Virus record (IMG/VR): IMGVR_UViG_3300031974_005289
Span: 1-24,781 of that record
From: a virus
Strand: one strand, 5' to 3'
DNA: 24,781 nucleotides
Translations under genes and position numbers: made by a program
Notes under the pieces: model-generated
Database searches by the model: none
Seen by the model: the letters and a program-made list of their open reading frames with translations, nothing else
Told to the model about the DNA's origin: nothing
Shown: piece by piece, positions 604 through 21,261 of the stretch
Layout: each line of letters starts with the position of its first letter
Numbering within the stretch: position 1 is the stretch's first letter

Positions 604-954
604 TTAAGTCACCGATGGGTTAACGCGTATCTTTCCTTCAAGAATTCGTTCGATAACAGTTGAATCATTGCTATCAACAAACGAAATCTGTACATCATAA
701 ACATAGTTACCTACTTTAAGAGCGTCTGTTTGAGTATTTGTCAAGGAAAGAGTTACGATTCCATCGGTTGCCGGAGAACTAATGGCCACGGCAAAGTCAG
801 TGGTATCATCTGAATCTGAATTGAAATTTCTTTTCATCTTGGCAGCAGCGCTATAATCAGTCAGATTCTTTTTATTGCCTAGGTAATCAACCAACTCTAG
901 TTGAATAGCAACATCTGACCCCTTATCAAAGGTAAATTTTTCGTATTCTGCCAT
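604..954 (-). CDS. Small beta-sandwich virion protein (BppU-N/Ig-like type), 116 aa
   Basis: The protein has the outline of a small all-beta domain common in phage baseplate and fibre loci. It starts with a charged strand (EKFTFDKGSDVAIQLELVD), then a 'NLTDYSAAAKMKR' strand, then 'DGIVTLSLTNTQTDALKVG' and 'YVYDVQISFVD', and ends 'LEGKIRVNPSVT'. The order (ligand-like strand, a sentence 'G.V.L.L..T..L..G.Y.YDV', then a V-P-S-V-T terminus) resembles BppU N-terminal-like modules; this is from remembered family shape, not a search. It is the first gene after the leftward late promoter at 1001-1008 and is followed by two more structural-type genes. No strong ribosome-binding site is visible upstream. 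Confidence 0.65.
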   Translation of the reverse strand: MAEYEKFTFDKGSDVAIQLELVDYLGNKKNLTDYSAAAKMKRNFNSDSDDTTDFAVAISSPATDGIVTLSLTNTQTDALKVGNYVYDVQISFVDSNDSTVIERILEGKIRVNPSVT

Positions 955-1000
955 TTGACCAATCCGATACTAAGTAACTCGACATTATGTTCTTACACTT

Positions 1001-1045: not shown

Positions 1046-1789
1046 ATGAATAAAAAATATTTGGTTGCAAGTGGGTGTAGTTGGACAGATCATTATTTTA
1101 CATCTGACTATCACCGTGACCTGGACACCTCGTGGGATAAATGGCCAACCATCCTGGCTAATAAATTAGATATGGAGGTTATTAATCTAGGAAGCATGGG
1201 GTCAGGCAATGAAGGAATATATTCTAGGGTAAGTGATTTCATATCAGAAACTCCAAAGGAGAAAATAGGGTTGGTAATAGTTGCGTGGTCTGGCGCGGCT
1301 AGAAGAGATTGGGAATTAATTGGCCACCGTAAAAAATGGGCTAGAGGAGTTCTAAATTCACCTGACTCAATATACAAAAAGTACATAACAAGTTGGGTAA
1401 GCGAAATAGTTGATTCCAAAGGTGATTCATATTATTTTATGAGAAGATCGATACGAAATTTTTATGCTTTGCAAGTATTGTGTGAAAGATATAATATTCC
1501 ATATAAACAAATCTGTGCTTTAGATCCCATAGGCGCGTATCAATACACTAAGTTTAGTTTTGATACCCATCATATTGATGTGATGAACCACTTTTTTACA
1601 AGCAGTCAATTTGAAGAAATAAATAAAGATAATTTTATAGGCTGGCCTATTTTTGAATACATGGGAGGCTTTTGTCTAAATGATATACTGAAACAGAACC
1701 GGCCTAAATATGCAATTTCATTAGAAGATCTTCATCCAAATGCGCTCGGACAACAGTTAATAGCAGATATCATATATGAAAATCTTTAG
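1046..1789 (+). CDS. SGNH/GDSL-type hydrolase (probable esterase), 247 aa
   Basis: The N terminus has the motif GCSWT at residues 10-14, with Ser12 as the likely nucleophile of block I. The Gly-containing block II is INLGS (residues 46-50), and block III appears as GSGN at 52-55 with Asn55 as the oxyanion-hole residue. Near the C terminus EDLHPNALG places the block V acid and histidine at about Asp228 and His230. Strands such as IGLVIVAWSG (residues 74-83) fit the alpha/beta SGNH core. There is no signal peptide, so it acts in the cytoplasm or after lysis. Enzymes of this type remove or transfer acyl groups on glycans and lipids. It is the first gene after the rightward late promoter and overlaps the carbamoyltransferase gene by 14 bases, which suggests a shared substrate. 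Confidence 0.8.
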   Translation: MNKKYLVASGCSWTDHYFTSDYHRDLDTSWDKWPTILANKLDMEVINLGSMGSGNEGIYSRVSDFISETPKEKIGLVIVAWSGAARRDWELIGHRKKWARGVLNSPDSIYKKYITSWVSEIVDSKGDSYYFMRRSIRNFYALQVLCERYNIPYKQICALDPIGAYQYTKFSFDTHHIDVMNHFFTSSQFEEINKDNFIGWPIFEYMGGFCLNDILKQNRPKYAISLEDLHPNALGQQLIADIIYENL

Positions 1790-3266
1790 TATAGCCCTTA
1801 ATATGCATGACCACAATACTTATGATGGGACATGGCATAATCAAATTGAAAGATTCAGTAGAAGAAAACATAATATTCCGTGGCATCAACATGTCTATCC
1901 CCACCACTCCGAATTAACAAGGATGAATATTACAGATAATAGATATGCTGTAAAATTTTATAATGAATATTGGAAACCAGAGAATCATGAATTATTTGCA
2001 TTCAGTAATTCTAATGAAGGATTAGAACTATTAAGATCCGCTGATATAGACATTACCAGACAATTTTTAGAATTTAAGCCTAAAAATTTATGGGATTATC
2101 ATAGACATAAAAACATATACTACATAGATCATCATCAGTCCCATGCGGCATATGCATTTTTGTCATCCGAATATGATGAGTCTGATATTTTGGCTATTGA
2201 TGGTGAAGGTTCGAACTTTAACTGTGTGTTTTTTGATAAAGATGGTAACATTACAGATTTGTCACATAAAATGGGAATAGGAATACTTTGGAATTACTTT
2301 TCTAAAAAATTAGGATTTGGTTCAATGGGTGCTGGAAAACTTATGGGACTTTCTGCCTATGGAAAATATTGTTCTGAATTTCATACTATAATTAATTACT
2401 ATTCAAATAACGAATTTAATTTTCCAAAATTCAACATCGAAGATTTTAGTCATGAAGACATAGCATATACACTACAATATGCTACTCAAGAATTAATAAA
2501 CACCCATGTCCTACCTTTAAAGTCCTGTGATAATATTTGTATTGCGGGAGGAGTGGCATATAATGGCTATGTCAACGAAGAGTTTACTAAACATTACACT
2601 GGAGTGCACGTGCCTCCTGCTCCAGGTGATGAAGGTCAAGCTTTAGGAAATTACATGCATGCCGAATATACAATTAATAAAAATGTACATATTCCTGATG
2701 TATATAGTGGAAAAGAATATCACTTTGATGAAGGTACACCAATCAATCACCGTGAGGTTGCTATGGCAATATATGAGGGAAAAATTATAGGATGGTTTAA
2801 TGGTAAATCAGAATCCGGTAATAGAGCCTTAGGCAATAGAAGTATACTTGCTGATCCTCGCAATCCTAATATAAAAGATATTATTAATAGTACAATAAAA
2901 TACAGAGAAGATTTTAGACCATTTGCCCCGGCTGTGTTGGAACATCACTATCAATATTGGTTTAACACAAATCAACCAAGTCCTTACATGTCAAGAATAA
3001 TGCAGGTAAAATCTGATCGTATACCTGGTGTAACTCATGTTGATGGTTCTTCTAGAATACAAACCGTAAACCATAAACAAAATAAAGATTTTTATAGAGT
3101 GATTGAAGAATTTTATCAGTTAACTGGAGTGCCTATGGTCCTTAACACAAGTTTTAATTGTAAAGAACCTATGGTTGAATCTCCTAAAGATGCTATCTTA
3201 ACATACAATGATACAGAATTAGATATGTTGATAATTAATGGTCGTAGTGTGTCTAAAGCAGGGTAA
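1776..3266 (+). CDS. O-carbamoyltransferase, NodU/CmcH family
   Basis: Family landmarks are in the right order: HHQSHAA at residues 119-125 (metal- and nucleotide-binding histidines), AIDGEG at 140-145, MGAGKLMGLSAYG at 184-196, GGVAYNGYVN at 258-267, PAPGDEGQALG at 281-291, and then the YrdC-like part with GNRALGNRSILADPR at 348-362 and REDFRPFAPA at 377-386. Members use carbamoyl phosphate and ATP to put a carbamoyl group on a hydroxyl, usually of a sugar (as NodU does on Nod factor) or an antibiotic nucleus. At 496 residues it is somewhat shorter than typical members but appears complete at both ends. The start overlaps the hydrolase gene, consistent with coupled translation. The target here is probably a sugar or glycan made by the nearby glycosyltransferases; that part is inference. 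Confidence 0.9.
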   Translation: MKIFSIALNMHDHNTYDGTWHNQIERFSRRKHNIPWHQHVYPHHSELTRMNITDNRYAVKFYNEYWKPENHELFAFSNSNEGLELLRSADIDITRQFLEFKPKNLWDYHRHKNIYYIDHHQSHAAYAFLSSEYDESDILAIDGEGSNFNCVFFDKDGNITDLSHKMGIGILWNYFSKKLGFGSMGAGKLMGLSAYGKYCSEFHTIINYYSNNEFNFPKFNIEDFSHEDIAYTLQYATQELINTHVLPLKSCDNICIAGGVAYNGYVNEEFTKHYTGVHVPPAPGDEGQALGNYMHAEYTINKNVHIPDVYSGKEYHFDEGTPINHREVAMAIYEGKIIGWFNGKSESGNRALGNRSILADPRNPNIKDIINSTIKYREDFRPFAPAVLEHHYQYWFNTNQPSPYMSRIMQVKSDRIPGVTHVDGSSRIQTVNHKQNKDFYRVIEEFYQLTGVPMVLNTSFNCKEPMVESPKDAILTYNDTELDMLIINGRSVSKAG

Positions 3267-3267
3267 A

Positions 3268-3768
3268 TCACTTCCAGAAATCATTCATGTAAGCTGTTTC
3301 TAGATCTTTTCTTAGCTTATTAAGATCTTTTAGTGCTCTATTTTCAGCTATAAAATAATTTTTCCTTTTTTCTTTTGATGTCATTTTTTCAAATGATTCA
3401 AAATCAATCAAATATAGCTTTTCGGTATTATCCTCAACAATAAAGTTTTCAAGAAGAAGATCATGAAATCCCCATTCCTTATCATTATCAACCAGATTTT
3501 CATATATGATTTTTTTGTGATTCATAAAGGATATAGGATTTAATTGAGTTCCTTTAATGAATTCTATGTGGTATACTATTTCGTATTTAGTAACTTCATA
3601 TGAGAAATGAGGTATGTGTACTTTATCAAAGTCAAAACTTTGAAGAGTACTGTATTTTTCGTCAATCAAATCTTTATTAAGTTTGATTGGAAATCTTACG
3701 GTTTTAATCAATGTAAAAGATGATCGATCACCGTTATCTACTTCATCAAATCTACTATACCATTTCAT
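3268..3768 (-). CDS. Miniature kinase-like protein (protein/APH/LPS-kinase fold remnant or minimal form), 166 aa
   Basis: Residues 101-110, FHDLLLENFI, match a kinase catalytic loop of the H-x-D-L-x-x-x-N kind (His102, Asp103, Asn108). Residues 119-124, YLIDFE, stand where the metal-binding DFG/DFE motif is expected (Asp122). Upstream, EFIKGTQL at 69-76 looks like a hinge segment ('EYIEG.TL' in APH and lipopolysaccharide kinases). The N-lobe is very short, and I see neither a Gly-rich loop nor an obvious ATP-anchoring lysine pair. It lies on the opposite strand to the whole island, one base from the end of the carbamoyltransferase gene, and its ATG abuts that of the next plus-strand gene. It could phosphorylate a sugar or lipid A-type acceptor, or be a pseudokinase. 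Confidence 0.6.
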   Translation of the reverse strand: MKWYSRFDEVDNGDRSSFTLIKTVRFPIKLNKDLIDEKYSTLQSFDFDKVHIPHFSYEVTKYEIVYHIEFIKGTQLNPISFMNHKKIIYENLVDNDKEWGFHDLLLENFIVEDNTEKLYLIDFESFEKMTSKEKRKNYFIAENRALKDLNKLRKDLETAYMNDFWK

Positions 3769-4323
3769 ATGAATATATATTACATGAACATTATATTATT
3801 GAAACATGGAAAAAAGTATACTGCAAATGATGTCAATCGACAAGCAGAAAAATTAATGCATTATACGGATTATCCTATTTTTTGTTTTACAGATGATACA
3901 AAAGATGTTATAATAGACTGTGTATCATTACCCAAAAAACCAAAACTAATGAAATGGTGGAATAAGCTTCACGTATATAGAAACGATTTTGTTTTATCAG
4001 GCAAATGTGTTATGGTTGATTTAGATATAGACATTATTAAAAATCCTTTTCCTTACATTGAGAATATAGATTGGAGAATACCTCATTTTATTCATGATCA
4101 CTGGAAAAAAGATTTGTCATATCAGCCACATGCGTATGAGACCGAGATTAATAGCTCTATCATGGCATGGACAGCCCATCGTAATACAGAGTATTGGTGG
4201 TGGTTTGAGCAAAATATAGACTATAACACTCGAAAATATGCCGGTGTTGATAGATATATCTGGGATAAGAAATTTAACTATGGAACATTTGATAATGAAA
4301 TACATTCAACCATCATTCTTTGA
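3769..4323 (+). CDS. GT-A type glycosyltransferase, 184 aa
   Basis: The N terminus (IILLKHGKKYTANDVNRQAEKL, split here: strand IILLKHGKKYTA then helix NDVNRQAEKL) followed by IFCFTDD at 37-43 is the first Rossmann-like half of a GT-A fold. MVDLDIDI at 82-89 supplies a DxD motif (Asp84/Asp86) for metal and nucleotide-sugar binding. INSSIMAW at 127-134 is the usual acceptor-side strand. The reaction is transfer of a sugar from a nucleotide donor; donor and acceptor are not readable. An alternative start at 3784 fits the family N terminus slightly better than 3769, which would place its ATG directly against that of the minus-strand kinase-like gene. The last 29 bases overlap the methyltransferase gene. 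It is short for the family. Confidence 0.75.
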   Translation: MNIYYMNIILLKHGKKYTANDVNRQAEKLMHYTDYPIFCFTDDTKDVIIDCVSLPKKPKLMKWWNKLHVYRNDFVLSGKCVMVDLDIDIIKNPFPYIENIDWRIPHFIHDHWKKDLSYQPHAYETEINSSIMAWTAHRNTEYWWWFEQNIDYNTRKYAGVDRYIWDKKFNYGTFDNEIHSTIIL

Positions 4324-4927
4324 AAATAAAGTCTTACCTCTACTAAGCTTTCTTTACACGGATACAATGTATGGAAATCAGTATGATTTCTATAGAATTA
4401 AAGATGTATTAGATCAATTTTCATCAGGACAATTTATATGTAAACAATGGGCGGTTGATGAGGTACAGCAATTTATTGAGCCAGAAGATACTATTGCTGT
4501 TATTGGTGGATGGTATGGATTGATGTCCCATATGTTAGCCGAATCTGGATTTACAGATACAATATTTGATTATGAAATAGATGAGGCCTGCATAAACCTA
4601 CATGGACATCTTAAGGTGCATGATAATGTGTTTATTTGTCATAAAGATGGATTTGATACATGTATTATGCACGGGTTAAAGGAAAAGATTATTATATGCA
4701 CTGCCTGCGAACATATTGATGAGGAGGATTTATATGACTATATGTCTATGAAAAATCCTTATGCTAAAGTCTTATTGCAATCAAATAATATGTTTGACAT
4801 TGATAGTCATGTCAATTGTCATAGCAGTGTAGACCATTTTATTGAATCACTTCCTGAAATGGACATTCTATATAAAGGCACAAAACAAATCGATAACTAT
4901 GAAAGATATATGGTTATTGCAAAATGA
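4295..4927 (+). CDS. Class I SAM-dependent methyltransferase-like protein, 210 aa
   Basis: Numbered from the ATG at 4295, motif I is AVIGGWYG at 68-75, a Gly-rich SAM loop after strand 1. The acidic end of strand 2 is FDYEID at 91-96. The motif IV region reads IICTACEHID at 133-142, a phrase characteristic of a phage methyltransferase family ('TxCEHI'), and LLQSNN follows on the next strand. The frame is open further upstream, to an ATG at 4238, but that extension lies in the glycosyltransferase gene and does not look like protein; 4280 is another possible start. The end overlaps the next start as ATGA. A likely role is methylation of the glycan or peptide product of the island. The acceptor is unknown. 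Confidence 0.75.
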   Translation: MKYIQPSFFENKVLPLLSFLYTDTMYGNQYDFYRIKDVLDQFSSGQFICKQWAVDEVQQFIEPEDTIAVIGGWYGLMSHMLAESGFTDTIFDYEIDEACINLHGHLKVHDNVFICHKDGFDTCIMHGLKEKIIICTACEHIDEEDLYDYMSMKNPYAKVLLQSNNMFDIDSHVNCHSSVDHFIESLPEMDILYKGTKQIDNYERYMVIAK

Positions 4928-5778
4928 AAAGACTAATATACAGCATGTACATACACATTCCCCCTGACGTCATTGAGGACGAGCATGCTGAATGTCCTAT
5001 AACTCGAGAAAAAACCCGGCTTACGACAGATTCAATGTTATCAAATTATGATTGGTTGTATTCTTCTCAAAAAAAATATGCTAAGCTATGTGGTGCAGAT
5101 TATAAACTATATGAATATGATGATGACTATACAAAATTTAAGAATCTATATTTTTCTAAAAGACCTTACATAACCACATACAACATCTTAAATTTCTACA
5201 AGATTTGGCTTATGTATCAAAATATTCATTATGATGAAATATTGTATCTTGATTTTGATGTCATACCTATAACACATCAAAATATATTTGAGGAACTTAA
5301 TTTTAAGACCGGTATACTTTGCAGGGTAAACCATGAAGGAAAAGTTACAACAAATGATGTTGACCCACAGACCGTTAGATCTCCTCGTGCCAAATGGTGG
5401 AACGCTCGTGAACTTCTACTTGATAAAGAATTTGATGGTGAAAATGACGTGTATAATACTGGAATTATAGGTGGTTCAAAAGACCAGTTACAGAAGCTAG
5501 CATACTTTGAAAACTTTGACGATAAACTTGATATGATGCATGACAAGGTAGAAGAGACATCATACCCTGATGCAATAAGATCAATGTTTGGATATGATAA
5601 TGAAACTCTATTTAGTTATCTTATGCAATTAAATAATGTACAGCTTAATGAATTATCTGAGGAATGGCACTTTATTATGAATCACAAATTTTCATTTATA
5701 ACCAGAAAATCCAAGATGGTACATGTAATCAACAAAGATTTTAATTATGCAAAAGATTATATTCAGCGTATGGTCTAA
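4924..5778 (+). CDS. GT-A type glycosyltransferase, 284 aa (paralogue 1)
   Basis: The core has LCGADY at 55-60, then a helix leading to ILYLDFDVIP at 106-115 with a DxD motif at Asp110/Asp112. YNTGIIGGSK at 177-186 is the acceptor-side strand, DNETLF lies at 225-230 and EEWHFIMNH at 246-254, and the C terminus has a histidine strand (MVHVINK). This order matches small galactosyl/glucosyl-type GT-A enzymes. It has no signal peptide or membrane helix, so it acts in the cytoplasm. It carries an insert of about 40 residues (roughly 135-175) compared with the next gene. The start overlaps the methyltransferase stop as ATGA, and the end overlaps the next gene by 32 bases. The sugar specificity cannot be told. 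Confidence 0.8.
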   Translation: MKRLIYSMYIHIPPDVIEDEHAECPITREKTRLTTDSMLSNYDWLYSSQKKYAKLCGADYKLYEYDDDYTKFKNLYFSKRPYITTYNILNFYKIWLMYQNIHYDEILYLDFDVIPITHQNIFEELNFKTGILCRVNHEGKVTTNDVDPQTVRSPRAKWWNARELLLDKEFDGENDVYNTGIIGGSKDQLQKLAYFENFDDKLDMMHDKVEETSYPDAIRSMFGYDNETLFSYLMQLNNVQLNELSEEWHFIMNHKFSFITRKSKMVHVINKDFNYAKDYIQRMV

Positions 5779-6376
5779 TTTGGATCTAGCCAAATCATGG
5801 ACTGGTTATAAAGATCTGATAATAAATAAACAGAGACTATATGCTCAACTTTGTGGAGCAGAGTATTACCATTTTGTAGTTGACCATGACTTTACCGACC
5901 TAATGTTTTTCAAAATACAAAAAGCAGAAGAGTTGGTGGAACAATATGATAAAGTGCTTTATCTGGATTGTGATGTTGTACCAAAGACTAATGTATCATT
6001 TTTTGATTCGCATGATTTTGATGAAGTATGTTTACACAGAACCAGAAAACCTGACTGGAAAATATATCACAAACAGATGATGTTACACGTGGAAAATATA
6101 CAAGGTAATGATTTAATCTGTAATACAGGTGTTTTTGGTTTAAGTAAAAAATCATCAGACGCTCTTATGTTTTCAGATAGACTCAATGAAGCAAAAGAAC
6201 TATCGGATGTTCTGAATAACGAGATATGCATCTCATATATGATAGAAAGATACAATGTTCCTTTAAAGGATATTGGAATGCAGTGGAATTTTATTTTGGA
6301 TAAAAATTTTAATATACAAACTGATGCCTGTTATTTTGTGCATCACTCAAATAAAGAGTTTCAAAATGGCATATGA
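5747..6376 (+). CDS. GT-A type glycosyltransferase, 209 aa (paralogue 2)
   Basis: It follows the same plan as the preceding gene in a shorter form: LCGAEY at 35-40, VLYLDCDVVP at 70-79 (DxD at Asp74/Asp76), ICNTGVFGLSK at 124-134, NNEICISYMI at 157-166, MQWNFIL at 178-184 and FVHHSN at 197-202. The correspondence block by block indicates a tandem duplication followed by divergence. It lacks the insert seen between the DxD and NTG blocks of its neighbour. The start lies 32 bases inside the upstream gene, and the end overlaps the radical SAM gene by 11 bases. Two similar enzymes in tandem suggest successive sugar additions, which is inference. Confidence 0.8.
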   Translation: MQKIIFSVWSNLDLAKSWTGYKDLIINKQRLYAQLCGAEYYHFVVDHDFTDLMFFKIQKAEELVEQYDKVLYLDCDVVPKTNVSFFDSHDFDEVCLHRTRKPDWKIYHKQMMLHVENIQGNDLICNTGVFGLSKKSSDALMFSDRLNEAKELSDVLNNEICISYMIERYNVPLKDIGMQWNFILDKNFNIQTDACYFVHHSNKEFQNGI

Positions 6377-7094
6377 ATCCGGAAATTATACGGGTATGAT
6401 AGATCTATCAACGTTCTGTAATGCCGCGTGTCCTCAATGCCATAGGACGGATCAAGGAAACATTCAGGAAAAACAACCATGGTTACCTTTGATACAAACT
6501 AACCTGGATTTGTTCAAAAAGAGATTTTCTGTAAATCAGTTACAGATGTATAAGTCGCTGGTATTTTGTGGAACATGGGGTGATCCATTTATGGCCAAAG
6601 ACATTTATGAAATTACCGAATATGTTCTAAGGTATTCTCATGCATATTTGACCATTAATACAAACGGTGCGATGAGAAATGAAGATTTTTGGTTTAACTT
6701 TGGAGCTTTGAATAACAAATACGGTCAAAGAATTAATATTGTATTTGCTATAGATGGATGCACAGAAGAACAGCATGCAAAATATAGAAGGAACACTTCT
6801 TTAAAAACCGTGTTGAGTCATATGGATGCATATATGGAATGTCCTAAATCAAGAAGCTCAGTATTTACTGTAGTATTTGAACATAATGAGAATGACCTAG
6901 ATAAGATTACACAAATAGCTAAGGATCATGGTGCCTATAAACATTGCATATGTCCATCAAATAGATTTTTTAAAGGACATGAAGGAAATAAAAGAGGCAA
7001 ACACCCTGACGTTTTCAAATTTTATAATGAGGGTACCATAGAGACTTTACACAGAGCTAAAAAAATTACCAGATATTACGAGGTAGAACTATGA
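6366..7094 (+). CDS. Radical SAM core protein (lacks its own SPASM domain), 242 aa
   Basis: From the ATG at 6366 the cluster motif is FCNAACPQC, a CxxxCxxC with Cys18, Cys22 and Cys25 for the 4Fe-4S cluster. GTWGDP at 69-74 takes the place of the SAM-binding GGE motif, and LTINTNGA at 95-102 is a typical strand of the partial TIM barrel. The frame continues upstream to 6273, but that part lies within the glycosyltransferase gene and does not look like protein. The protein ends shortly after the barrel, where most relatives carry an auxiliary-cluster SPASM domain; that part is encoded by the next gene in the -1 frame. An A7 run at 7059-7065 lies where a slip would join the two. The radical reaction and substrate are unknown. 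Confidence 0.8.
   Translation: MAYESGNYTGMIDLSTFCNAACPQCHRTDQGNIQEKQPWLPLIQTNLDLFKKRFSVNQLQMYKSLVFCGTWGDPFMAKDIYEITEYVLRYSHAYLTINTNGAMRNEDFWFNFGALNNKYGQRINIVFAIDGCTEEQHAKYRRNTSLKTVLSHMDAYMECPKSRSSVFTVVFEHNENDLDKITQIAKDHGAYKHCICPSNRFFKGHEGNKRGKHPDVFKFYNEGTIETLHRAKKITRYYEVEL
7059..7065 (+). other. A7 run at the end of the radical SAM core: candidate frameshift site or indel
   Basis: Seven A residues lie in frame as AAA AAA A just before the end of the radical SAM core. Reading one base back from here gives codons from 7064 to the ATG at 7091 with no stop, entering the SPASM gene in frame. The -1 frame has a stop (TAA) at 7058-7060, so this run is at the very edge of the region where a joining slip could happen. 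It may be ribosomal or transcriptional slippage, a real one-base deletion in the phage, or an assembly error. Confidence 0.45.
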
Positions 7095-7522
7095 CTGATA
7101 AAAGAATATATTGTTATTTTTATGAAAGAGGTGAGCTTCAAATTAATCCAGACGGTCAGGTTTTCCCTTGCTGCTTTATTGCAAATAGTATGTTTGTATC
7201 AAAAACATTTGGTTATCCAAAGCCTGGCACCTTAAAAAGAAGAGGAGACCCGGATGATATTAAATTTCAACTTGAAGAGCCGGAATCTGTAGCCGAGTGG
7301 GTTCCTGACAGAGATTGGATCTATTCAGAATATATTGAAAATGGCGATGATCTATGTTTGGATAATCATTCTATAGATGAAATAGTAAATCATGAATGGT
7401 TCAAAAAAATAGAAAAAGCCAGAGAGAAATGGGAAACCGCACCTATTATATGCAGAGAGCACTGTACCGTTGGTGGAGGAAGAAGTGGTCATTTATCTAG
7501 AAAGAAAGCAAATGATGAATGA
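7091..7522 (+). CDS. SPASM/auxiliary-cluster domain protein, partner of the preceding radical SAM core, 143 aa
   Basis: It has Cys8, then 'ELQINPDGQVFPCC' at 15-28 (Cys27/Cys28), the classic '.I..DG.v.PCC' segment of a SPASM or twitch domain. 'NHSIDEIVNHEWF' at 92-104 is the helix that normally follows ('sl.eiw....f'), and CREHC at 121-125 supplies further cluster-ligand candidates, with Cys89 also present. There is no CxxxCxxC radical SAM motif, so it cannot cleave SAM alone. The start overlaps the stop of the core gene as ATGA, and its end overlaps the next start the same way. It may bind the core as a separate subunit or be the detached C-terminal half of a formerly single protein. Confidence 0.7.
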   Translation: MTDKRIYCYFYERGELQINPDGQVFPCCFIANSMFVSKTFGYPKPGTLKRRGDPDDIKFQLEEPESVAEWVPDRDWIYSEYIENGDDLCLDNHSIDEIVNHEWFKKIEKAREKWETAPIICREHCTVGGGRSGHLSRKKANDE

Positions 7523-8622
7523 AATACTTTTGTAAGGCTCCTTTTACACAAATGTCAATTGATCCAGATGGAGCCGTGTTACCGTGCTGTAGATACACCA
7601 AGGCTTTAGGTTATCTAAAAGATGAGAGAATAGATGATATATGGAACAATGAAAATTATAAAAATCTTAGGTCTCAATTTCTGAATGGTGAGAAACCAAA
7701 AGAGTGTGCTGACTGCTGGCATGCCGAAGAATCAGGTGACAAAAGTTTAAGATCAACACAAAATTATTGGGCTAGACATATGAACTTTAAGAGACCTGAA
7801 GTTGATACAAGCCCGTTATATTACGAATTTAAGACCACAAATGTTTGCAATTTAAAGTGTAGGATGTGTGGACCAATTAATTCAAGTCAAATAGCAAAAG
7901 AAGAATCCAGTATTGATGTTAGAAAACATTATCTTTCAAACAAGATTATAGGTACACATCACGAACCGATTCTTAAAGATTGGCTTGACGATTGTAGATA
8001 TATTTTATTTGCAGGCGGGGAACCATTTGTAAATAATGAAATTAAGACAATAGCCGATTATCTAAATGATAATGATTTACTTAAAGACATTGAAGTTTTG
8101 GTTGTCACAAACGGTACACACTATGATAAGGATTTCATTGATCAGTTTAAACAAATAAAAAAATTTCATCTTAGAATTAGTTTGGATGATATTAACGAAA
8201 GAAATAACTATCAAAGAGAAGGTTCAGACTTTAAGTTAATACAAAAAAATGTTTTAAAGTTTAAAAAAGATTTTGACGATATAATGTTTAACTGCACTGT
8301 AAATTGGTACAACATATGGGATATTGATAAATTCTTTGATTATTGTGATAAGGTTTCAATACCAGTATCTGTACAATTTGTAGAAAATCCTGCCTATTTG
8401 AATATATCAAATCTACCTCAAGAGATAAAGGAAAAAATAAACACAAAATATAAAAATTCAAAAGATGCAAGAATTAAGGTAATTCTAAATAGAATGAATA
8501 TATCCGGTAAAAATGTAATTGAAAGTTTTCGAAAGCATGTTACATACTATGATCTACTTAGAAATAACAATTTTGAAATGACCTTTCCAGAATGGAGTGC
8601 GATATTAAGTAATGTACGGTGA
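7519..8622 (+). CDS. Twitch-domain radical SAM protein, 367 aa (copy A)
   Basis: An N-terminal twitch-like cysteine module (Cys5, 'MSIDPDGAVLPCC' with Cys23/Cys24, and CADC at 63-66) precedes the radical SAM core. The core has the cluster motif NVCNLKCRMCG with Cys110, Cys114 and Cys117, the SAM motif FAGGEPF at 164-170, VVTNGT at 195-200 and a RISLDD strand near 219. The reversed order, auxiliary cysteines first and core second, is seen in the 'twitch domain-containing radical SAM protein' group of marine phages and bacteria. Characterised relatives of the wider SPASM/twitch class oxidise peptides or sugars (sulphur-to-carbon or carbon-carbon bonds, alcohol oxidation); the substrate here is unknown. 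ATGA overlap with the upstream gene; 11-base overlap with the downstream one. Confidence 0.85.
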   Translation: MKYFCKAPFTQMSIDPDGAVLPCCRYTKALGYLKDERIDDIWNNENYKNLRSQFLNGEKPKECADCWHAEESGDKSLRSTQNYWARHMNFKRPEVDTSPLYYEFKTTNVCNLKCRMCGPINSSQIAKEESSIDVRKHYLSNKIIGTHHEPILKDWLDDCRYILFAGGEPFVNNEIKTIADYLNDNDLLKDIEVLVVTNGTHYDKDFIDQFKQIKKFHLRISLDDINERNNYQREGSDFKLIQKNVLKFKKDFDDIMFNCTVNWYNIWDIDKFFDYCDKVSIPVSVQFVENPAYLNISNLPQEIKEKINTKYKNSKDARIKVILNRMNISGKNVIESFRKHVTYYDLLRNNNFEMTFPEWSAILSNVR

Positions 8623-9685
8623 ATACACATGCAACGCTCCATTTAACAATATGTATGTCCAACTCACAGGCAAGGTGTCTCCTTGTTGGAAATCTGTTGG
8701 GTTTGGTGATACATGGAGCAAAGATAGATCGTTAATGGATATATGGAAAGGAAATGAATTTCAGAAATATAGAGACGCGTTAATTCAAGATGCCTTTATC
8801 TATAGATGTAAGGAATGTAAGACTGATATTGACAATGGTGTATATCCTTTAGCAAAAGCATACGAAAACTTTCCAGTAAATCATATGCCATCAATGATGG
8901 AAATTGAGCTTAGTAATCAATGCAATCTGGAATGCATTATGTGCAGTGGTTTTTTGAGTAGTGGTATCCGTAAAAACAGAGATAAACTTCCACCTTTACC
9001 ACAGATATTTGATGATTCATTTAATGAACAAATGAAGGAGTTTATACCTCATCTTACTGAACTTAGGGTAAATGGTGGTGAGCCCTTTGCCCAGAAAATT
9101 TTATTGGATTTATTGGATGTGGTTGCAGAAATTAAGCCAGATCTTAAGGTTAATATTGCAACAAATGGAACCGTATATAATAAAAGGGTTCAATCAATAT
9201 TGGATAAATGTAACATAAGCCTTAATGTTAGTATTGACAGCCTAATACCTAAAAGATACGAAGAGATAAGAATCAATGCATCATTTAATATACTTATGAA
9301 AAATTTTGAAATATTCAATAACTATCATCACAAAAATAATAAGTTAATGTCAGTTATGGTAAATCCTATGAATATGAATTGGGATGAGATGGTAGGCTAT
9401 ATACCTTGGGCTACCGAAAAAAAAGTGAATATATGGTACAACACTATTTTATATCCTCATCACCTTACGATAAGAAATTTGCCTGCAAAGGAAATTGGGA
9501 AAATAATTGATTACATGGAAAAAGAATTTGACGAGCTTAGTGGCCACGACCCTATGAATAATATACCTACTCTTAAAAATTTAATAGATCTTATTAAACA
9601 ATGGTACCTTGATGCTTTGGCAGAAATAGATATTCCTAAGTACGATGATAGAGGAAGTTTACTACATGATAAAGGGCTTCAATAG
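8612..9685 (+). CDS. Twitch-domain radical SAM protein, 357 aa (copy B)
   Basis: It has the same architecture as the preceding gene: Cys7 with 'CNAPFNNMYVQ', 'GKVSPCW' at 20-26, CKEC at 66-69, then the core with NQCNLECIMC (Cys104, Cys108, Cys111), VNGGEPFA at 153-160, IATNGT at 182-187 and a SIDS strand. The auxiliary module differs: copy A has PCC at the second position and this one has PCW, so one potential ligand is missing and the auxiliary cluster may be altered. It is the last gene of the island, and its final 50 bases lie opposite the 3' end of a minus-strand gene. Duplication with divergence suggests two steps on one substrate or two substrates. Confidence 0.85.
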   Translation: MYGEYTCNAPFNNMYVQLTGKVSPCWKSVGFGDTWSKDRSLMDIWKGNEFQKYRDALIQDAFIYRCKECKTDIDNGVYPLAKAYENFPVNHMPSMMEIELSNQCNLECIMCSGFLSSGIRKNRDKLPPLPQIFDDSFNEQMKEFIPHLTELRVNGGEPFAQKILLDLLDVVAEIKPDLKVNIATNGTVYNKRVQSILDKCNISLNVSIDSLIPKRYEEIRINASFNILMKNFEIFNNYHHKNNKLMSVMVNPMNMNWDEMVGYIPWATEKKVNIWYNTILYPHHLTIRNLPAKEIGKIIDYMEKEFDELSGHDPMNNIPTLKNLIDLIKQWYLDALAEIDIPKYDDRGSLLHDKGLQ

Positions 9686-10175
9686 CGCTTTTTGATTTAC
9701 GTATATCTTTTTTTAATTCCTTATCTTTGGCATTTGCTATTTCCTCCCATTCAAATAACGCTAACTTGAAAAGAAAAAGCCTTTCCTTGTTCTGTTCCTC
9801 TGTTGATGTAGGCCTGGAGTCAAGTGTAAAAAAGGTTTTTACTAGAGACTCCATGGTATCTTTTGACATATTATCATAGGTCTCTTGAAGAAAATCATCT
9901 TTCACATCCATTACTTTTAAGAGCATTTGATCTCTTGTTCTCTCCAATTCTTGATTTCGAATATAGGTTCTTTCCATTAGATCATCTATGGTAACACAGC
10001 GACCAGATTCGTCAATAGGATGCTTCAAAAATTTTTCCCACTGTATATTACCTTCCGCTACATTTACAACGTGTGTTCTGTACACGTTTTCTGTTTCGGA
10101 CCACCAAACAGATTCAACTATTGTTCTTGCATTATTTGTAAAATATGCATCTACAAACTTGTGTCCTTCAATCAT
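9636..10175 (-). CDS. Unknown protein at the end of the fibre gene block, 179 aa
   Basis: I do not recognise this protein. It is mostly helical and highly charged, with an N-terminal strand-rich part (residues 1-45, including VESVWWSETENVYRTHVV), a middle section TIDDLMERTYIRNQELERTRDQ, and a Lys/Glu-rich C-terminal helix pair (about 140-175). There is no cysteine motif, signal peptide or membrane segment. The start overlaps the stop of the 337-aa gene as TAATG, so it is the last gene of the late structural run that begins with gp25. A virion-associated or assembly-helper protein is possible. Its last 50 bases overlap the end of the oppositely oriented radical SAM gene. Confidence 0.7.
   Translation of the reverse strand: MIEGHKFVDAYFTNNARTIVESVWWSETENVYRTHVVNVAEGNIQWEKFLKHPIDESGRCVTIDDLMERTYIRNQELERTRDQMLLKVMDVKDDFLQETYDNMSKDTMESLVKTFFTLDSRPTSTEEQNKERLFLFKLALFEWEEIANAKDKELKKDIRKSKSAIEALYHVVNFLYHRT
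9671..9693. terminator. Weak stem-loop between the convergent gene ends, possible bidirectional terminator
   Basis: The bases AAAGGGC, a 7-base loop, then GCGCTTT can pair with one G-G mismatch, and are followed by more T residues on the plus strand. On the minus strand the structure is preceded by AAAAA and followed by CCCTTT. It covers the stop codon of the last island gene. The stem is short, so this is tentative. Confidence 0.3.
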
Positions 10176-11188
10176 TATGTTCTCTCCAGTTTTAATTCGT
10201 ATGTATTTGCTGTGATCAGAGTACCATTAGGAAATTCTTGTGCACGATAGTCGTTCGTGGTGAAATCATATGTTTGAAAATCACCAGTTACGGTTGCGGC
10301 ATCTAATACTGTATTTGTCATAGCGGTTCCTTGTGTTGTCCCAGAACCATCAACGTTATATCTTAGTGTCATTCCTGTGTATGAATAAATTGCATGTCTT
10401 ATTAAAGGAGCAAAATAATCATCGAACTCTGTTTGTGTCATATGTCTTAAACCAGCAGGATTATTTGGTCCATTGTTGGTATAATCAACAACCAAAGGTC
10501 CTCTCCACCCACCACCTACAGATGATACTCCATCAATTTGATATAGCCTAAAATCTGTAAATGTGTAGATATCTTGAAAAATTTGGCCAGGTGTAACACC
10601 ATCTCCAATGTTGACACGATTGTAATTAGGAATATCAGCTGCTGTATCTCTGTAGACTAAACCTAAGTTTGTTGAACCAGAAATAGAAGCAGCCGTGCTG
10701 ATATAGTAAGCTCCTGCGGCAATAGCATCTGTACCATTTGCGCCAACCATTCTGGTTACAACAGGATCTATAAATGTGTCCAAAATATCCTGATAGGTCA
10801 TTTCCTGAACACCATTTGATGTAGGTCTTACAGGCTTATATCTATGACCTGGATATGATATAACGGGTGATGATGGTGCAGTAACGGTTTGACTAATTTT
10901 ATCATATAGTGTTGTAACAACCTGAGGTTCCTGTGTATCAGCCTCTGTTGGATAATATGTAACTGTTGGCCAACCAGCAGAGGTATTTCTTTCTGCTGCA
11001 CCAGATCTATATCTTGTATCAGTCATTGATGGCGAGATATTACCATTTGATGTTACAACACTTAACTCAACAGAAGGGTCCTGAGAATAAAGATAACCAA
11101 TCTGTTGTAACATCAATTCATATTCAGCCGACGTGCATTCTTTTATTCGAATGTTATTATCGGACACCATTGGTCTGTAAACTGTCAT
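10175..11188 (-). CDS. Probable virion structural (tail/fibre-region) protein, 337 aa
   Basis: The protein starts MTVYRPMVSDNNIRIKE and is rich in Thr, Tyr, Asn and Gly, with many short strand-like segments. Two helical stretches contain similar wording: MTYQDILDTFIDPVVTRM (residues about 129-146) and MTQTEFDDYFAPLIRHAI (about 250-267). These look like two copies of one structural unit, 'MT..(D/E)..D.f..P.(V/I).......', each followed by a Gly-rich beta region. No enzyme motif is visible. It stands directly after the two DSA-repeat fibre genes and is coupled by TAATG to the 179-aa gene. AAGGTT lies ahead of its ATG. The name is by context and composition. Confidence 0.7.
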   Translation of the reverse strand: MTVYRPMVSDNNIRIKECTSAEYELMLQQIGYLYSQDPSVELSVVTSNGNISPSMTDTRYRSGAAERNTSAGWPTVTYYPTEADTQEPQVVTTLYDKISQTVTAPSSPVISYPGHRYKPVRPTSNGVQEMTYQDILDTFIDPVVTRMVGANGTDAIAAGAYYISTAASISGSTNLGLVYRDTAADIPNYNRVNIGDGVTPGQIFQDIYTFTDFRLYQIDGVSSVGGGWRGPLVVDYTNNGPNNPAGLRHMTQTEFDDYFAPLIRHAIYSYTGMTLRYNVDGSGTTQGTAMTNTVLDAATVTGDFQTYDFTTNDYRAQEFPNGTLITANTYELKLERT

Positions 11189-11196
11189 GATAAACC

Positions 11197-11874
11197 TTAC
11201 GCAATTGTTGGATCATTGTTGGTTGATAAGAAATATCCTGCCAAAACTATTGTACCGGAATCATTCTTTACAGTAAACAACTTGGCATTATCTAGTTCAA
11301 TTCTATCACTATCAATAATTAATTTTGTAACTTCCAAATTTGTTATGGATGCACTATCAATTGTGGCATATGTAATATCTGCTTGATTTGCTGTTAGTTT
11401 AATTACTGTGGCACTATCAATGCTGAGTGATGTTACCTTAAGGTTATTTACATAGGCACTATCAATTGTTAAAATTGCACCAGGTTCAACACCAATACTA
11501 TCAACATTTATTGTTGCAAATCTTGCGCTATCGGCATACATTGTGCCTGTAACATATAGGTTTCTTATGGTTGCACTGTCAATTGTGGCACTGTCAGCAA
11601 TAAGTTTACCTACCCGAATTCTTTTGAACTCAGCAGAGTCACCAATAAAACCTTTTACATAAAGATTACCTGTGCCACTGAAAAGTGTGGTTCCGATACT
11701 ATCAAGTAAACCACCTGTATAATTTATAGCACTTACAAGATTGGAATCGGCATAGTTATTTGCAAAATCTGAATCTAAATTATCCAGATCACCTATGTAA
11801 TCTGACATCAGATTGGTGTTGTTCATAAATGTGCCAATGGCATCAACTAAATCTGTTGTAACTTTACGAGTCAT
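11197..11874 (-). CDS. DSA-repeat tail-fibre-like protein, 225 aa
   Basis: After an N-terminal helix-turn segment (LMSDYIGDLDNLDSDF at 22-37, then DSNLVSAINYTG at 43-54) the middle of the protein (about 79-175) consists of imperfect repeats of the form D-S-A-x-hydrophobic-x-x-L. DSA occurs seven times, near residues 79, 94, 99, 115, 138, 153 and 173. Such regular short repeats suggest a trimeric beta-helical or layered fibre shaft. The last 30 residues form a small C-terminal strand region. The N-terminal block is shared with the next upstream gene, so the two are paralogues, probably attaching to the same site. AGAGGAAA stands ahead of the ATG as a strong ribosome-binding site. Confidence 0.75.
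   Translation of the reverse strand: MTRKVTTDLVDAIGTFMNNTNLMSDYIGDLDNLDSDFANNYADSNLVSAINYTGGLLDSIGTTLFSGTGNLYVKGFIGDSAEFKRIRVGKLIADSATIDSATIRNLYVTGTMYADSARFATINVDSIGVEPGAILTIDSAYVNNLKVTSLSIDSATVIKLTANQADITYATIDSASITNLEVTKLIIDSDRIELDNAKLFTVKNDSGTIVLAGYFLSTNNDPTIA
11350..11640 (-). repeat. Asp-Ser-Ala coding repeat array in a fibre shaft
   Basis: Seven DSA units spaced 5 to 23 residues apart, most followed by a hydrophobic residue two places later and a Leu near position +5 (for example DSATIRNL, DSAYVNNL, DSASITNL). At DNA level the recurrent word on the plus strand is 'gcactatcaa' or a close variant. Confidence 0.7.
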
Positions 11875-11882
11875 ATTTTCCT

Positions 11883-12722
11883 CTATACACTATCAACATC
11901 CAACTGATAAGCAGCAAAGTAGATGGTACCAGAATCTCCCTGGCCTATTGAATCATAACCCAACGAATCCGCAATAATAAAAGGCCTTGCATACTTGAAT
12001 TCCAAACCAGGGCTATCGGTCAATGTTAATATATTTATATCCGCAGTTTCAATGAAGGCAGAATCAATATGGACACCGGAATCTCCACCACTATCAGATA
12101 TAAAATATGTTATATTGATCTTGTTAAGAACAAGTGCACTGTCAATCACACCGACCTGATATCGCCATCTTAAACTTTTAAAGAAAACAGTAGCTGTACT
12201 ATCAAGTGCTGTTAGGCTAGTGATAAAACCACTATCAGTAATTGTAAGTTGACCAAACGTAGCGCTGTCCGGATATTCACGAAGGTTTAATACATTTAAT
12301 TCTCTAAATTTTGCTGAATCTGCAGTAAAGTCAAATCCGGCAGTTCCGGGTGAATCACCATACCATGTAGGGTCAGTCGGACCCAAGGTCATTGCAGAGT
12401 CATAATTCCAAAGTTGATTGACACGAATTAGATCCAGATCACCAGAATCAACAAATAACTTCATTGAGACTTGTCTTGTGGAGGATGATGTCCCACCAAG
12501 TAATGAATTGTAGATATCTGTGGCTTCTCGGCCAAGATAATCTACAGCACTGACAAGATTTGAATCCTTATCAATTGGATAACCATCTAAAGACCAAGTA
12601 TTACCAGGTTGAAATGTTGTGTCTAGGTCATCCAGATCACCCATGTAATCAGACAAGGTATTAACCTTGTTGTACCAGGAATCAATTAAATCTGAATCAG
12701 TGACTAGAATCGTACGTGCCAT
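11883..12722 (-). CDS. DSA-repeat tail-fibre-like protein, 279 aa
   Basis: The N terminus shares the block LSDYMGDLDDLDTTF (residues 23-37) and DSNLVSAVDYLG (53-64) with the adjacent 225-aa protein. It has an extra Trp- and Gly-containing loop of about 12 residues between the two halves. The rest has DSA five times plus several DSG and DST variants, again in the 'DSA-x-hydrophobic-x-x-L' setting (DSAKFRELNVL, DSATFGQLTI, DSALVLNKI). A fibre or fibre-connector role is inferred. The start overlaps the stop of the 66-aa coiled-coil gene as TAATG. An exact late-promoter box falls inside the gene at 12032-12039 on the coding strand, which might add transcripts for the downstream genes or be chance. 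Confidence 0.75.
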   Translation of the reverse strand: MARTILVTDSDLIDSWYNKVNTLSDYMGDLDDLDTTFQPGNTWSLDGYPIDKDSNLVSAVDYLGREATDIYNSLLGGTSSSTRQVSMKLFVDSGDLDLIRVNQLWNYDSAMTLGPTDPTWYGDSPGTAGFDFTADSAKFRELNVLNLREYPDSATFGQLTITDSGFITSLTALDSTATVFFKSLRWRYQVGVIDSALVLNKINITYFISDSGGDSGVHIDSAFIETADINILTLTDSPGLEFKYARPFIIADSLGYDSIGQGDSGTIYFAAYQLDVDSV

Positions 12723-20019: not shown

Positions 20020-21261
20020 TTAAGTACTAATTTGTGTGCCAAGTGCGATACGTTTATAGAATCCGGCATCACTATCATAAACTGCAAGGCAAGGGTTTCC
20101 TGATGCACCATCATCAACAAATATAAGTTTACCGTGTGAACCGGTTGGAACAGTGGCAACAGTATATGTATTAAGATCAACTTCCGTTGCTCTAGCCTTT
20201 ACATAGTCCGAATCAACCGTAGTAGAAATATCATCTGCCTCAATTAGATTTCTCTTAATTGAGAACCAACCTTGGTCGTCATAGAAATTAAATCGATTTG
20301 AATCTTTATGATATGAGATAGAACCTTTACCTCTAAACAAAGCCTGTCCGGCAGTTGAGGTAAGACCAGCAGTATTAACTGTAGGTACTGCTAAGGTTCC
20401 TATATTATTGCTGGAATCAAATCCAAAATTAAATATTGTTTGATTTGTGTGAAGTTCAGCTGTTGGTACTTCATCGACAGTGGCAAGTTGAATAGTGTTA
20501 CCGCCAAATAATAAACCGCCACCGTTATTGGATGCCCAGATTCCTGATCTCCATGGACCAGTAATAAAGCCACCACCTACAAAGAAACCATTTGATGAGT
20601 CCAGGGAAACATTGTTTGAACCTAAAGAAACGGGTTCTGAGAATGTAAAGTATGTTCCGTCAAATCCAAAGTCTGCTCCGGCAAGATGAATTGTTTTACC
20701 ACTTAACCACAGGTCTTTCCACTGATAATTTGAATCACCTAAATCATATGCACTATCAACGGATGGAACAATGTTACCTGCATGTGCAGTAAGATCAGGA
20801 GCATCAACTCTGAGATTAATGTATGCAGAATCGATGAGTTGTATTACCTCAGCAGAATCAACTGAATTTGCTTGAATCAATATTAATGTACCGGCAGAGT
20901 CAAATGCTGTCCCGGTCAACAATGAGATATAGGCAGAATCAATTTCTTCTTTGATATTTGTTATCAAAGCAACAGTACCAGATTCATCTGGCAGTTTAAT
21001 TGTTCTATCGGCTGTTGGATTAATTACTCCAAAAAATGTTTGGAATGCATCATCAGGGCTGTCACCCTCAAATAATATACCGCGGTCAATGAAACCAATT
21101 CCATCAACACCACCACCAGAACCACCTACCTGAACTTGTAGGGCGGCTACATCCGAGTAGAGTTCCTGGAAATTGTTGTTAATTTTGGTACCACCGGTAC
21201 GAAGATCATCTCCGGTACCATCATTGCCAGTGGTTCCAATATCTATAATTTCTCTAGCCAT
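20020..21261 (-). CDS. Tail-fibre-like virion protein, 413 aa
   Basis: Residues 5-36 (IIDIGTTGNDGTGDDLRTGG followed by TKINNNFQELY) are the N-terminal attachment signature of many marine T4-like fibre proteins. A Gly-rich hinge (residues 46-55) follows, then DSA units at about 108-110, 121-123, 135-137, 144-146 and 169-171. 'YDLGDSNYQWKDLWLSGKTI' at 172-191 is the common shaft phrase 'DLGs....W.DLyLSGkTI'. The C-terminal third is beta-rich, ending 'GKLIFVDDGASGNPCLAVYD', which may be the tip. It has its own late promoter at 21287-21294 and AGGTTAAG upstream of the ATG. Standing between the gp7-like and gp8 genes, it may be tied to the wedge. Its receptor is unknown. Confidence 0.8.
   Translation of the reverse strand: MAREIIDIGTTGNDGTGDDLRTGGTKINNNFQELYSDVAALQVQVGGSGGGVDGIGFIDRGILFEGDSPDDAFQTFFGVINPTADRTIKLPDESGTVALITNIKEEIDSAYISLLTGTAFDSAGTLILIQANSVDSAEVIQLIDSAYINLRVDAPDLTAHAGNIVPSVDSAYDLGDSNYQWKDLWLSGKTIHLAGADFGFDGTYFTFSEPVSLGSNNVSLDSSNGFFVGGGFITGPWRSGIWASNNGGGLLFGGNTIQLATVDEVPTAELHTNQTIFNFGFDSSNNIGTLAVPTVNTAGLTSTAGQALFRGKGSISYHKDSNRFNFYDDQGWFSIKRNLIEADDISTTVDSDYVKARATEVDLNTYTVATVPTGSHGKLIFVDDGASGNPCLAVYDSDAGFYKRIALGTQIST

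Follow-up and report, generated by a model that had tools for sequence, protein, structure and literature searches.

The host recognition cluster (HRC) of pelagimyophages, described in 2020, is a hypervariable, non-syntenic fibre region located downstream of VrlC and upstream of the neck gene gp14, which harbors GT8 glycosyltransferases and radical-SAM cassettes (PMC7029224). The GT8 genes of the HRC were proposed to alter the O-chain of the host, and late promoters were not detectable in that study (PMC7029224). In 2017, 12 radical-SAM genes were reported from a T4-like phage of the ocean (PMC5332604). In mycobacteriophages, virions are glycosylated and phage-encoded glycosyltransferases reportedly act on virion proteins (Freeman 2023, cited in PMC11256854). 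At the locus described below phage-encoded glycosyltransferases may act on virion proteins too, but the phages and the glycosyltransferases are different, and no radical-SAM or carbamoyl tailoring is mentioned for the mycobacteriophage case.

The DNA analysed (the window) is an entire IMG/VR record of 24,781 bases from an uncultured T4-like marine phage, hence the phage genome itself is represented by a fragment. Close DNA relatives of the window were not found among 50,697 phage records; by the gene read as gp6, which was matched to annotated baseplate wedge genes, the nearest isolates are C48C1 (40%), Melnitz and HTVC008M (33%). Another gene was read as gp25, and profile matches in the minus-strand flank identify a baseplate wedge protein resembling gp8 as well as one protein that carries the N-terminal domain of T4 gp9/10. 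Set into this minus-strand fibre and structural block is an island of 11 mostly overlapping open reading frames (ORFs; 1046-9685), bordered on the left by t116 (604-954, minus strand) and on the right by f179 (9636-10175, minus strand). An earlier note, made from the letters alone, had described ten reverse-oriented genes between the 179-aa and the 116-aa gene; the block, its extent and its borders stand, as does the orientation opposite to the structural genes for ten plus-strand ORFs, but there are 11 ORFs, and the kinase-like gene lies on the minus strand. G+C content per 1-kb window is 28-35% in the island and mostly 35-42% in the flanks. The island is not a product of chance, since its long ORFs have homologues at the same place in many contigs.

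The island is an instance of the published HRC feature of a pelagimyophage-like T4 relative: it contains GT8 and radical-SAM genes, and its content is hypervariable and non-syntenic among relatives. As to its position, it is preceded by f1376, a 1376-aa protein that matches VrlC of Pelagibacter phage Mosig (31%); the gene gp14 falls outside the window. The opinion in the earlier note that this is not a known standard phage cassette is thereby superseded (PMC7029224; PMC5332604). A difference is that the published cluster belongs to phages of SAR11, whereas the window comes from an uncultured contig. The nearest isolate with the gene set is Mosig itself (EXVC030M, MT647606; host HTCC1062), in which an opposite-strand island is likewise found between f337/f179 and a t116 homologue and encodes a carbamoyltransferase (56% identical to that of the window), a methyltransferase, the glycosyltransferase GTb (41%), an SGNH hydrolase and radical-SAM proteins. 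The Mosig cassette is larger, with nitroreductases, a DegT aminotransferase, Asp/Arg hydroxylases and a desaturase, and in this phage the fibre operon also includes an epimerase gene. This nucleotide-sugar epimerase (L052 23641-24369), 88% identical, lies between f337 and f179 in the fibre operons of Mosig, L056 and L059.

On the t116 side, the plus strand encodes HYD (1046-1789), a putative SGNH/GDSL-like hydrolase or acyl-transferring enzyme with a weak Pfam GDSL match (0.004), a homologue in Mosig and the motifs GCS close to the N-terminus and DLHPN close to the C-terminus, both read from the sequence, followed by CARB (1776-3266), a NodU/Nol-like O-carbamoyltransferase (Pfam 6.4e-63; PHROG 1601, 4.7e-101). 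The N and C Carbam_trans domains of CARB both exceed the Pfam cut-off, and under the NodU equivalog NF041651 the protein reaches 128 bits, below the curated cut-off of 1000 bits. KIN (3268-3768, minus strand) is kinase-like by very weak ABC1/KdkA/LanKC matches and the motif HDLLLEN...IDFE; its start codon abuts that of GTa (3769), and L019, L020, L027 and L049 retain it in the interval from t116 to GTa. The remaining genes are on the plus strand. GTa (3769-4323) is a glycosyltransferase by PHROG 1962 (3.2e-7), an invariant DLD motif and profile kinship with c6, a glycosyltransferase found in relatives. MT (4238-4927) gave no family match in profile searches, while its AlphaFold model (pLDDT 84.9) matches class I SAM methyltransferases and its profile weakly matches spermidine synthases. 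GTc (5747-6376) is a GT8-family glycosyltransferase (Pfam Glyco_transf_8 2.2e-6, above the cut-off), and GTb (4924-5778), which has no direct family match, is identified as GT8-like by profile-profile alignment to GTc (hhalign 100%, E 1.8e-43) and carries a DFD motif with the invariant residues D110 and D112. The roles originally assigned by eye are thus recovered by profile for the carbamoyltransferase, the glycosyltransferases and the radical-SAM genes, by structural model for the methyltransferase, and by weak matches only for the hydrolase and the kinase-like gene.

Three radical-SAM units had also been claimed. There are indeed three radical-SAM cores, but the first unit is a split enzyme, in which rS1 (6363-7094; core motif CNAACPQC; Pfam 5.8e-7) provides the core and SPA (7091-7522; Pfam SPASM 4.7e-6) is a separate SPASM (auxiliary Fe-S) protein that forms its other half. 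Among relatives the two are fused in 8 ORFs and SPASM is separate in 13; the recurrence of stand-alone SPASM proteins in other contigs makes a frameshift error unlikely. The other two, rS2 (7519-8622; NF033640, 9e-88) and rS3 (8612-9685; NF033640, 3e-46; Pfam Radical_SAM and SPASM), are N-terminal twitch/SPASM radical-SAM enzymes; rS2 scores 295 bits against N_Twi_rSAM (NF033640), whose curated cut-off is 170 bits, while rS3, at 158 bits, falls just under it and is therefore not counted as a member. Peptides and small metabolites are frequent substrates of SPASM/twitch enzymes, the A3 profile matches SkfB and the BtrN twitch domain, and in islands of a second class (see below) as many as about ten radical-SAM genes accompany genes for PP-loop enzymes, UDP-sugar dehydrogenase and DegT. 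All of this would suit an island whose radical-SAM/SPASM and other enzymes jointly make a RiPP- or aminocyclitol-like product, either a modified peptide or a small diffusible molecule, to be delivered in the course of infection. This role, one of those suggested in the earlier note, is nevertheless improbable: neighbouring island genes are overlapping or abutting, and between them no extra precursor-like ORF of at least 60 aa was recognised, which makes a small peptide product less likely, there is no exporter, and the universal core consists of glycosyltransferases and the methyltransferase rather than radical-SAM enzymes.

This core became apparent from a clade set of 23 loci. MT is present in 22/22 relatives with a readable island and in the window. 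Every readable island has either GTa or c6, never together, and the profiles of these two glycosyltransferases are related; likewise, each has either GTb and GTc or the pair c12 and c14 (another glycosyltransferase and a PP-loop enzyme), never both pairs. The shared core genes behave like alleles, while the carbamoyltransferase, hydrolase, kinase-like and radical-SAM genes are accessory and variably present. The smallest form, f179-GTc-GTb-MT-GTa-KIN-t116, is found in L027 and L049, and compared with it the window has two extra modules, HYD-CARB and rS1-SPA-rS2-rS3. Over seven loci GTa is 64-77% identical while the backbone gene f525 of the same loci is 41-64% identical, which suggests exchange between phage backbones. 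The synteny comparison hence bears out the expectation of a variable, fibre-linked island that is missing at comparable places of some relatives, rather than a core block present in all of them and unlinked to fibres.

The link to the fibre region can be followed through f337 (10175-11188, minus strand), a tail-region protein and the partner of f179. Its AlphaFold model is confident (pLDDT 89.6), yet it has no significant match in PDB or BFVD, and naming f337 by its fold was dropped. Of the 56 IMG/VR loci in which f337 is followed by 3.5 kb or more of sequence, 50 have f179 and a glycosyltransferase/methyltransferase cassette; in two, f179 goes with a cassette that is cut or partly different, and four have neither. 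Near-duplicate contigs are part of these counts, which depend on simple ORF calling. In L085 and L139, which are short and stand outside the 56, f337-f179 is followed directly by genes read as neck genes, with no cassette, and these are probable empty sites. Both loci, together with f179 matches in L037 and L039, rule out f179 as a strict cassette marker. No cassette gene was seen in the stretches of about 42 kb compared from HTVC008M (41.8 kb), C48C1 and Melnitz, nor in L047 and L048, where t116 comes directly after the VrlC-side genes.

Among the 50,697 phage records f337 was found only in Mosig, and GTb in one record. In a pattern-based scan of 84,980 bacterial and archaeal species, each represented by one genome, which can miss relatives, GTb relatives were confirmed in six loci, five of them titled MAGs and one a metagenome bin. 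Since f337 and f179 lie alongside in four of the six (L056, L057, L059, L060), these loci are probably phage DNA in bins; of the other two, L058 holds a Mosig-like cassette without f337/f179, and L061, a fragment of 3 kb, gives a partial match. The bins holding the phage-like contigs L056-L060 are named Flavobacteriaceae, Gammaproteobacteria, Pelagibacter and Rhodobacteraceae. MT relatives were confirmed by pattern scan in at least 588 viral contigs, and among the best 80 of these loci 21 have both f337 and f179 in the flanking sequence covered, two have one and 57 have neither; many of the 57 contain tandem radical-SAM genes. A second class of islands (L161, L164, L167, L173, L209, L216) combines this MT with a tandem array of as many as about ten radical-SAM genes, and various members add PP-loop, carbamoyltransferase, UDP-sugar dehydrogenase and DegT genes.

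In the gap between t116 and the island, the perfect palindrome TATTTATATAAATA (1001-1014) places the T4-type late promoter sequence TATAAATA on each strand and so gives two predicted back-to-back late promoters, one directed toward t116 and the fibres and one toward the island; in Mosig, TATTTATATAAATA lies between the two halves of the cassette. Upstream of t116, TATAAATA was present in 35/35 loci inspected, several of which are near-identical, and of 22 distinct divergent gaps 11 carry ATAAATA facing the island, where mononucleotide shuffling predicts 2.05. The motif is not over-represented across the whole window (7 matches, 14.55 expected), so the case for a promoter rests on position. Late expression of the island would follow from this arrangement. 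Most of the GTa-headed islands (L026, L029, L031, L146) have no consensus late promoter facing them, which counts against fibre decoration as proposed below. A conserved leader element, CGAGTTACTTAGTATCGGATTGG (959-981, minus strand), separates the late promoter from the start codon of t116; its core occurs in 20 of the first relatives compared, and its 17-nt core in 24 contigs of all IMG/VR, in 22 of which it sits in the t116 leader directly downstream of TATAAATA. As an RNA hairpin the leader folds no better than shuffles, and CGAGTTACTTAGTATCGGATTGG is a candidate regulatory leader or recombination border. Late timing is also compatible with enzymes that hypermodify phage DNA with glycosylated or otherwise altered bases against restriction, and phage glycosyltransferases can act on DNA; however, the island has no base-hydroxylating or thymidylate-type enzyme and sits in the fibre block, and restriction systems are nearly absent from SAR11 genomes (PMC7029224), hence this explanation is very hard to credit.

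The island proteins look soluble. In a hydropathy test for membrane spans, 1 of 154 clade island ORFs passes, by way of an N-terminal extension of the called ORF, as do 4 of 365 ORFs in the wider island set, the passes overall being mostly such extensions. With almost no membrane span among island ORFs, a flippase, a polymerase or a lipid-linked initiating transferase is not evident. The LPS- and O-antigen-modifying glycosyltransferases of temperate phages alter glycans usually with membrane-bound, lipid-linked donors; both they and the present enzymes are phage glycosyltransferases, but the window island has no membrane enzymes for lipid-linked donors. These observations bear on the possibility that the cassette modifies a host surface glycan (LPS/O-chain or a lipid-linked precursor), so that sugars are added and capped and competing or progeny phages no longer bind infected cells or debris. 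NodU-type carbamoyltransferases decorate exported sugars, GT8 enzymes often work in LPS synthesis, and peripheral glycosyltransferases that lack membrane spans can still work on the cytoplasmic side. The presence of UDP-sugar dehydrogenase and DegT genes in the wider islands also speaks for host-surface modification, as does its publication as a proposal for the same cluster, which in turn tells against fibre decoration (PMC7029224). Set against it are the missing flippase, polymerase and initiating transferase, the scarcity of GTb in cellular genomes, the position beside fibre genes and the late-type promoter of the window, as exclusion would be better served by early expression. On balance we regard host-surface modification as a serious possibility, nearly as likely as fibre decoration.

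An acceptor made late and lying in the cytosol, that is, virion fibres, is favoured by the solubility of the enzymes, their site beside the fibres, the late-type promoter that both share and families centred on phages; the allele-like behaviour of the core genes speaks for fibres as well, and the glycosylated virions of mycobacteriophages are a precedent. Our tentatively preferred reading is thus that the phage brings its own cytosolic module, expressed late, to build and tailor a glycan, with a virion fibre or adhesin as the most likely acceptor. The block, one cassette of the hypervariable host-recognition cluster, would encode a soluble pathway, in which two or three GT8-type glycosyltransferases and the methyltransferase build and cap a short glycan, while the accessory carbamoyltransferase, SGNH hydrolase/acyl transferase, kinase-like protein and three SPASM/twitch radical-SAM enzymes may tailor the glycan or its acceptor. 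Late transcription from a promoter that adjoins the divergent promoter of the fibre operon would bring the island enzymes together with freshly synthesised fibres in the cytosol. The acceptor might be f337/f179 or products downstream of t116, the latter gene matching PHROG 3304 'L-shaped tail fiber protein assembly' (6.5e-16), with relatives that flank the variable region in clade loci. Swapping the cassette would then change the exposed phage surface and leave the fibre backbone unchanged. We think it somewhat unlikely that the system is specifically one of virion post-translational modification, in which SPASM/twitch radical-SAM enzymes and glycosyltransferases mature the phage's own fibres and cassettes are exchanged like serotypes.

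Fibre decoration is further weakened by the occurrence of the methyltransferase and radical-SAM set in the second-class islands, where f337/f179 were not found in the flanking sequence covered, by f337-f179 without an adjoining cassette in L085 and L139, and by a candidate fibre sequon that does not track the cassette. This sequon, the dipeptide DS (often I/V-D-S-A), is 2.7-fold enriched in clade fibre proteins and plus-strand (virion) ORFs, often at a spacing of 9 residues, and in the window was noted in f225 (11197-11874), f279 (11883-12722) and the gp10-like gene (20020-21261). As a glycosylation sequon DS (DSA) was rejected, since its enrichment is about 1.0 in many other cassette-bearing phages, and Mosig, for example, shows none. 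A GANTC bias of the DNA was likewise discarded as its cause, as the excess is in one frame and AGY codons are used too.

While the island type, with GT8s and radical-SAM cassettes in ocean phages, was already known (PMC7029224; PMC5332604), the shared core with its exclusive alleles, the split radical-SAM enzyme, the linkage to f337/f179 with empty sites, the bidirectional late-type promoter, the solubility and the distribution of GTb are described here. With MT relatives in at least 588 contigs, such islands appear to be common in ocean T4-like phages, and since the cultured phage Mosig carries a related cassette, the question of their function is directly testable. If the enzymes decorate fibres, not only fibre sequence but also enzymes would determine the surface diversity of these phages, and if they remodel the host, the islands would be superinfection-exclusion modules.
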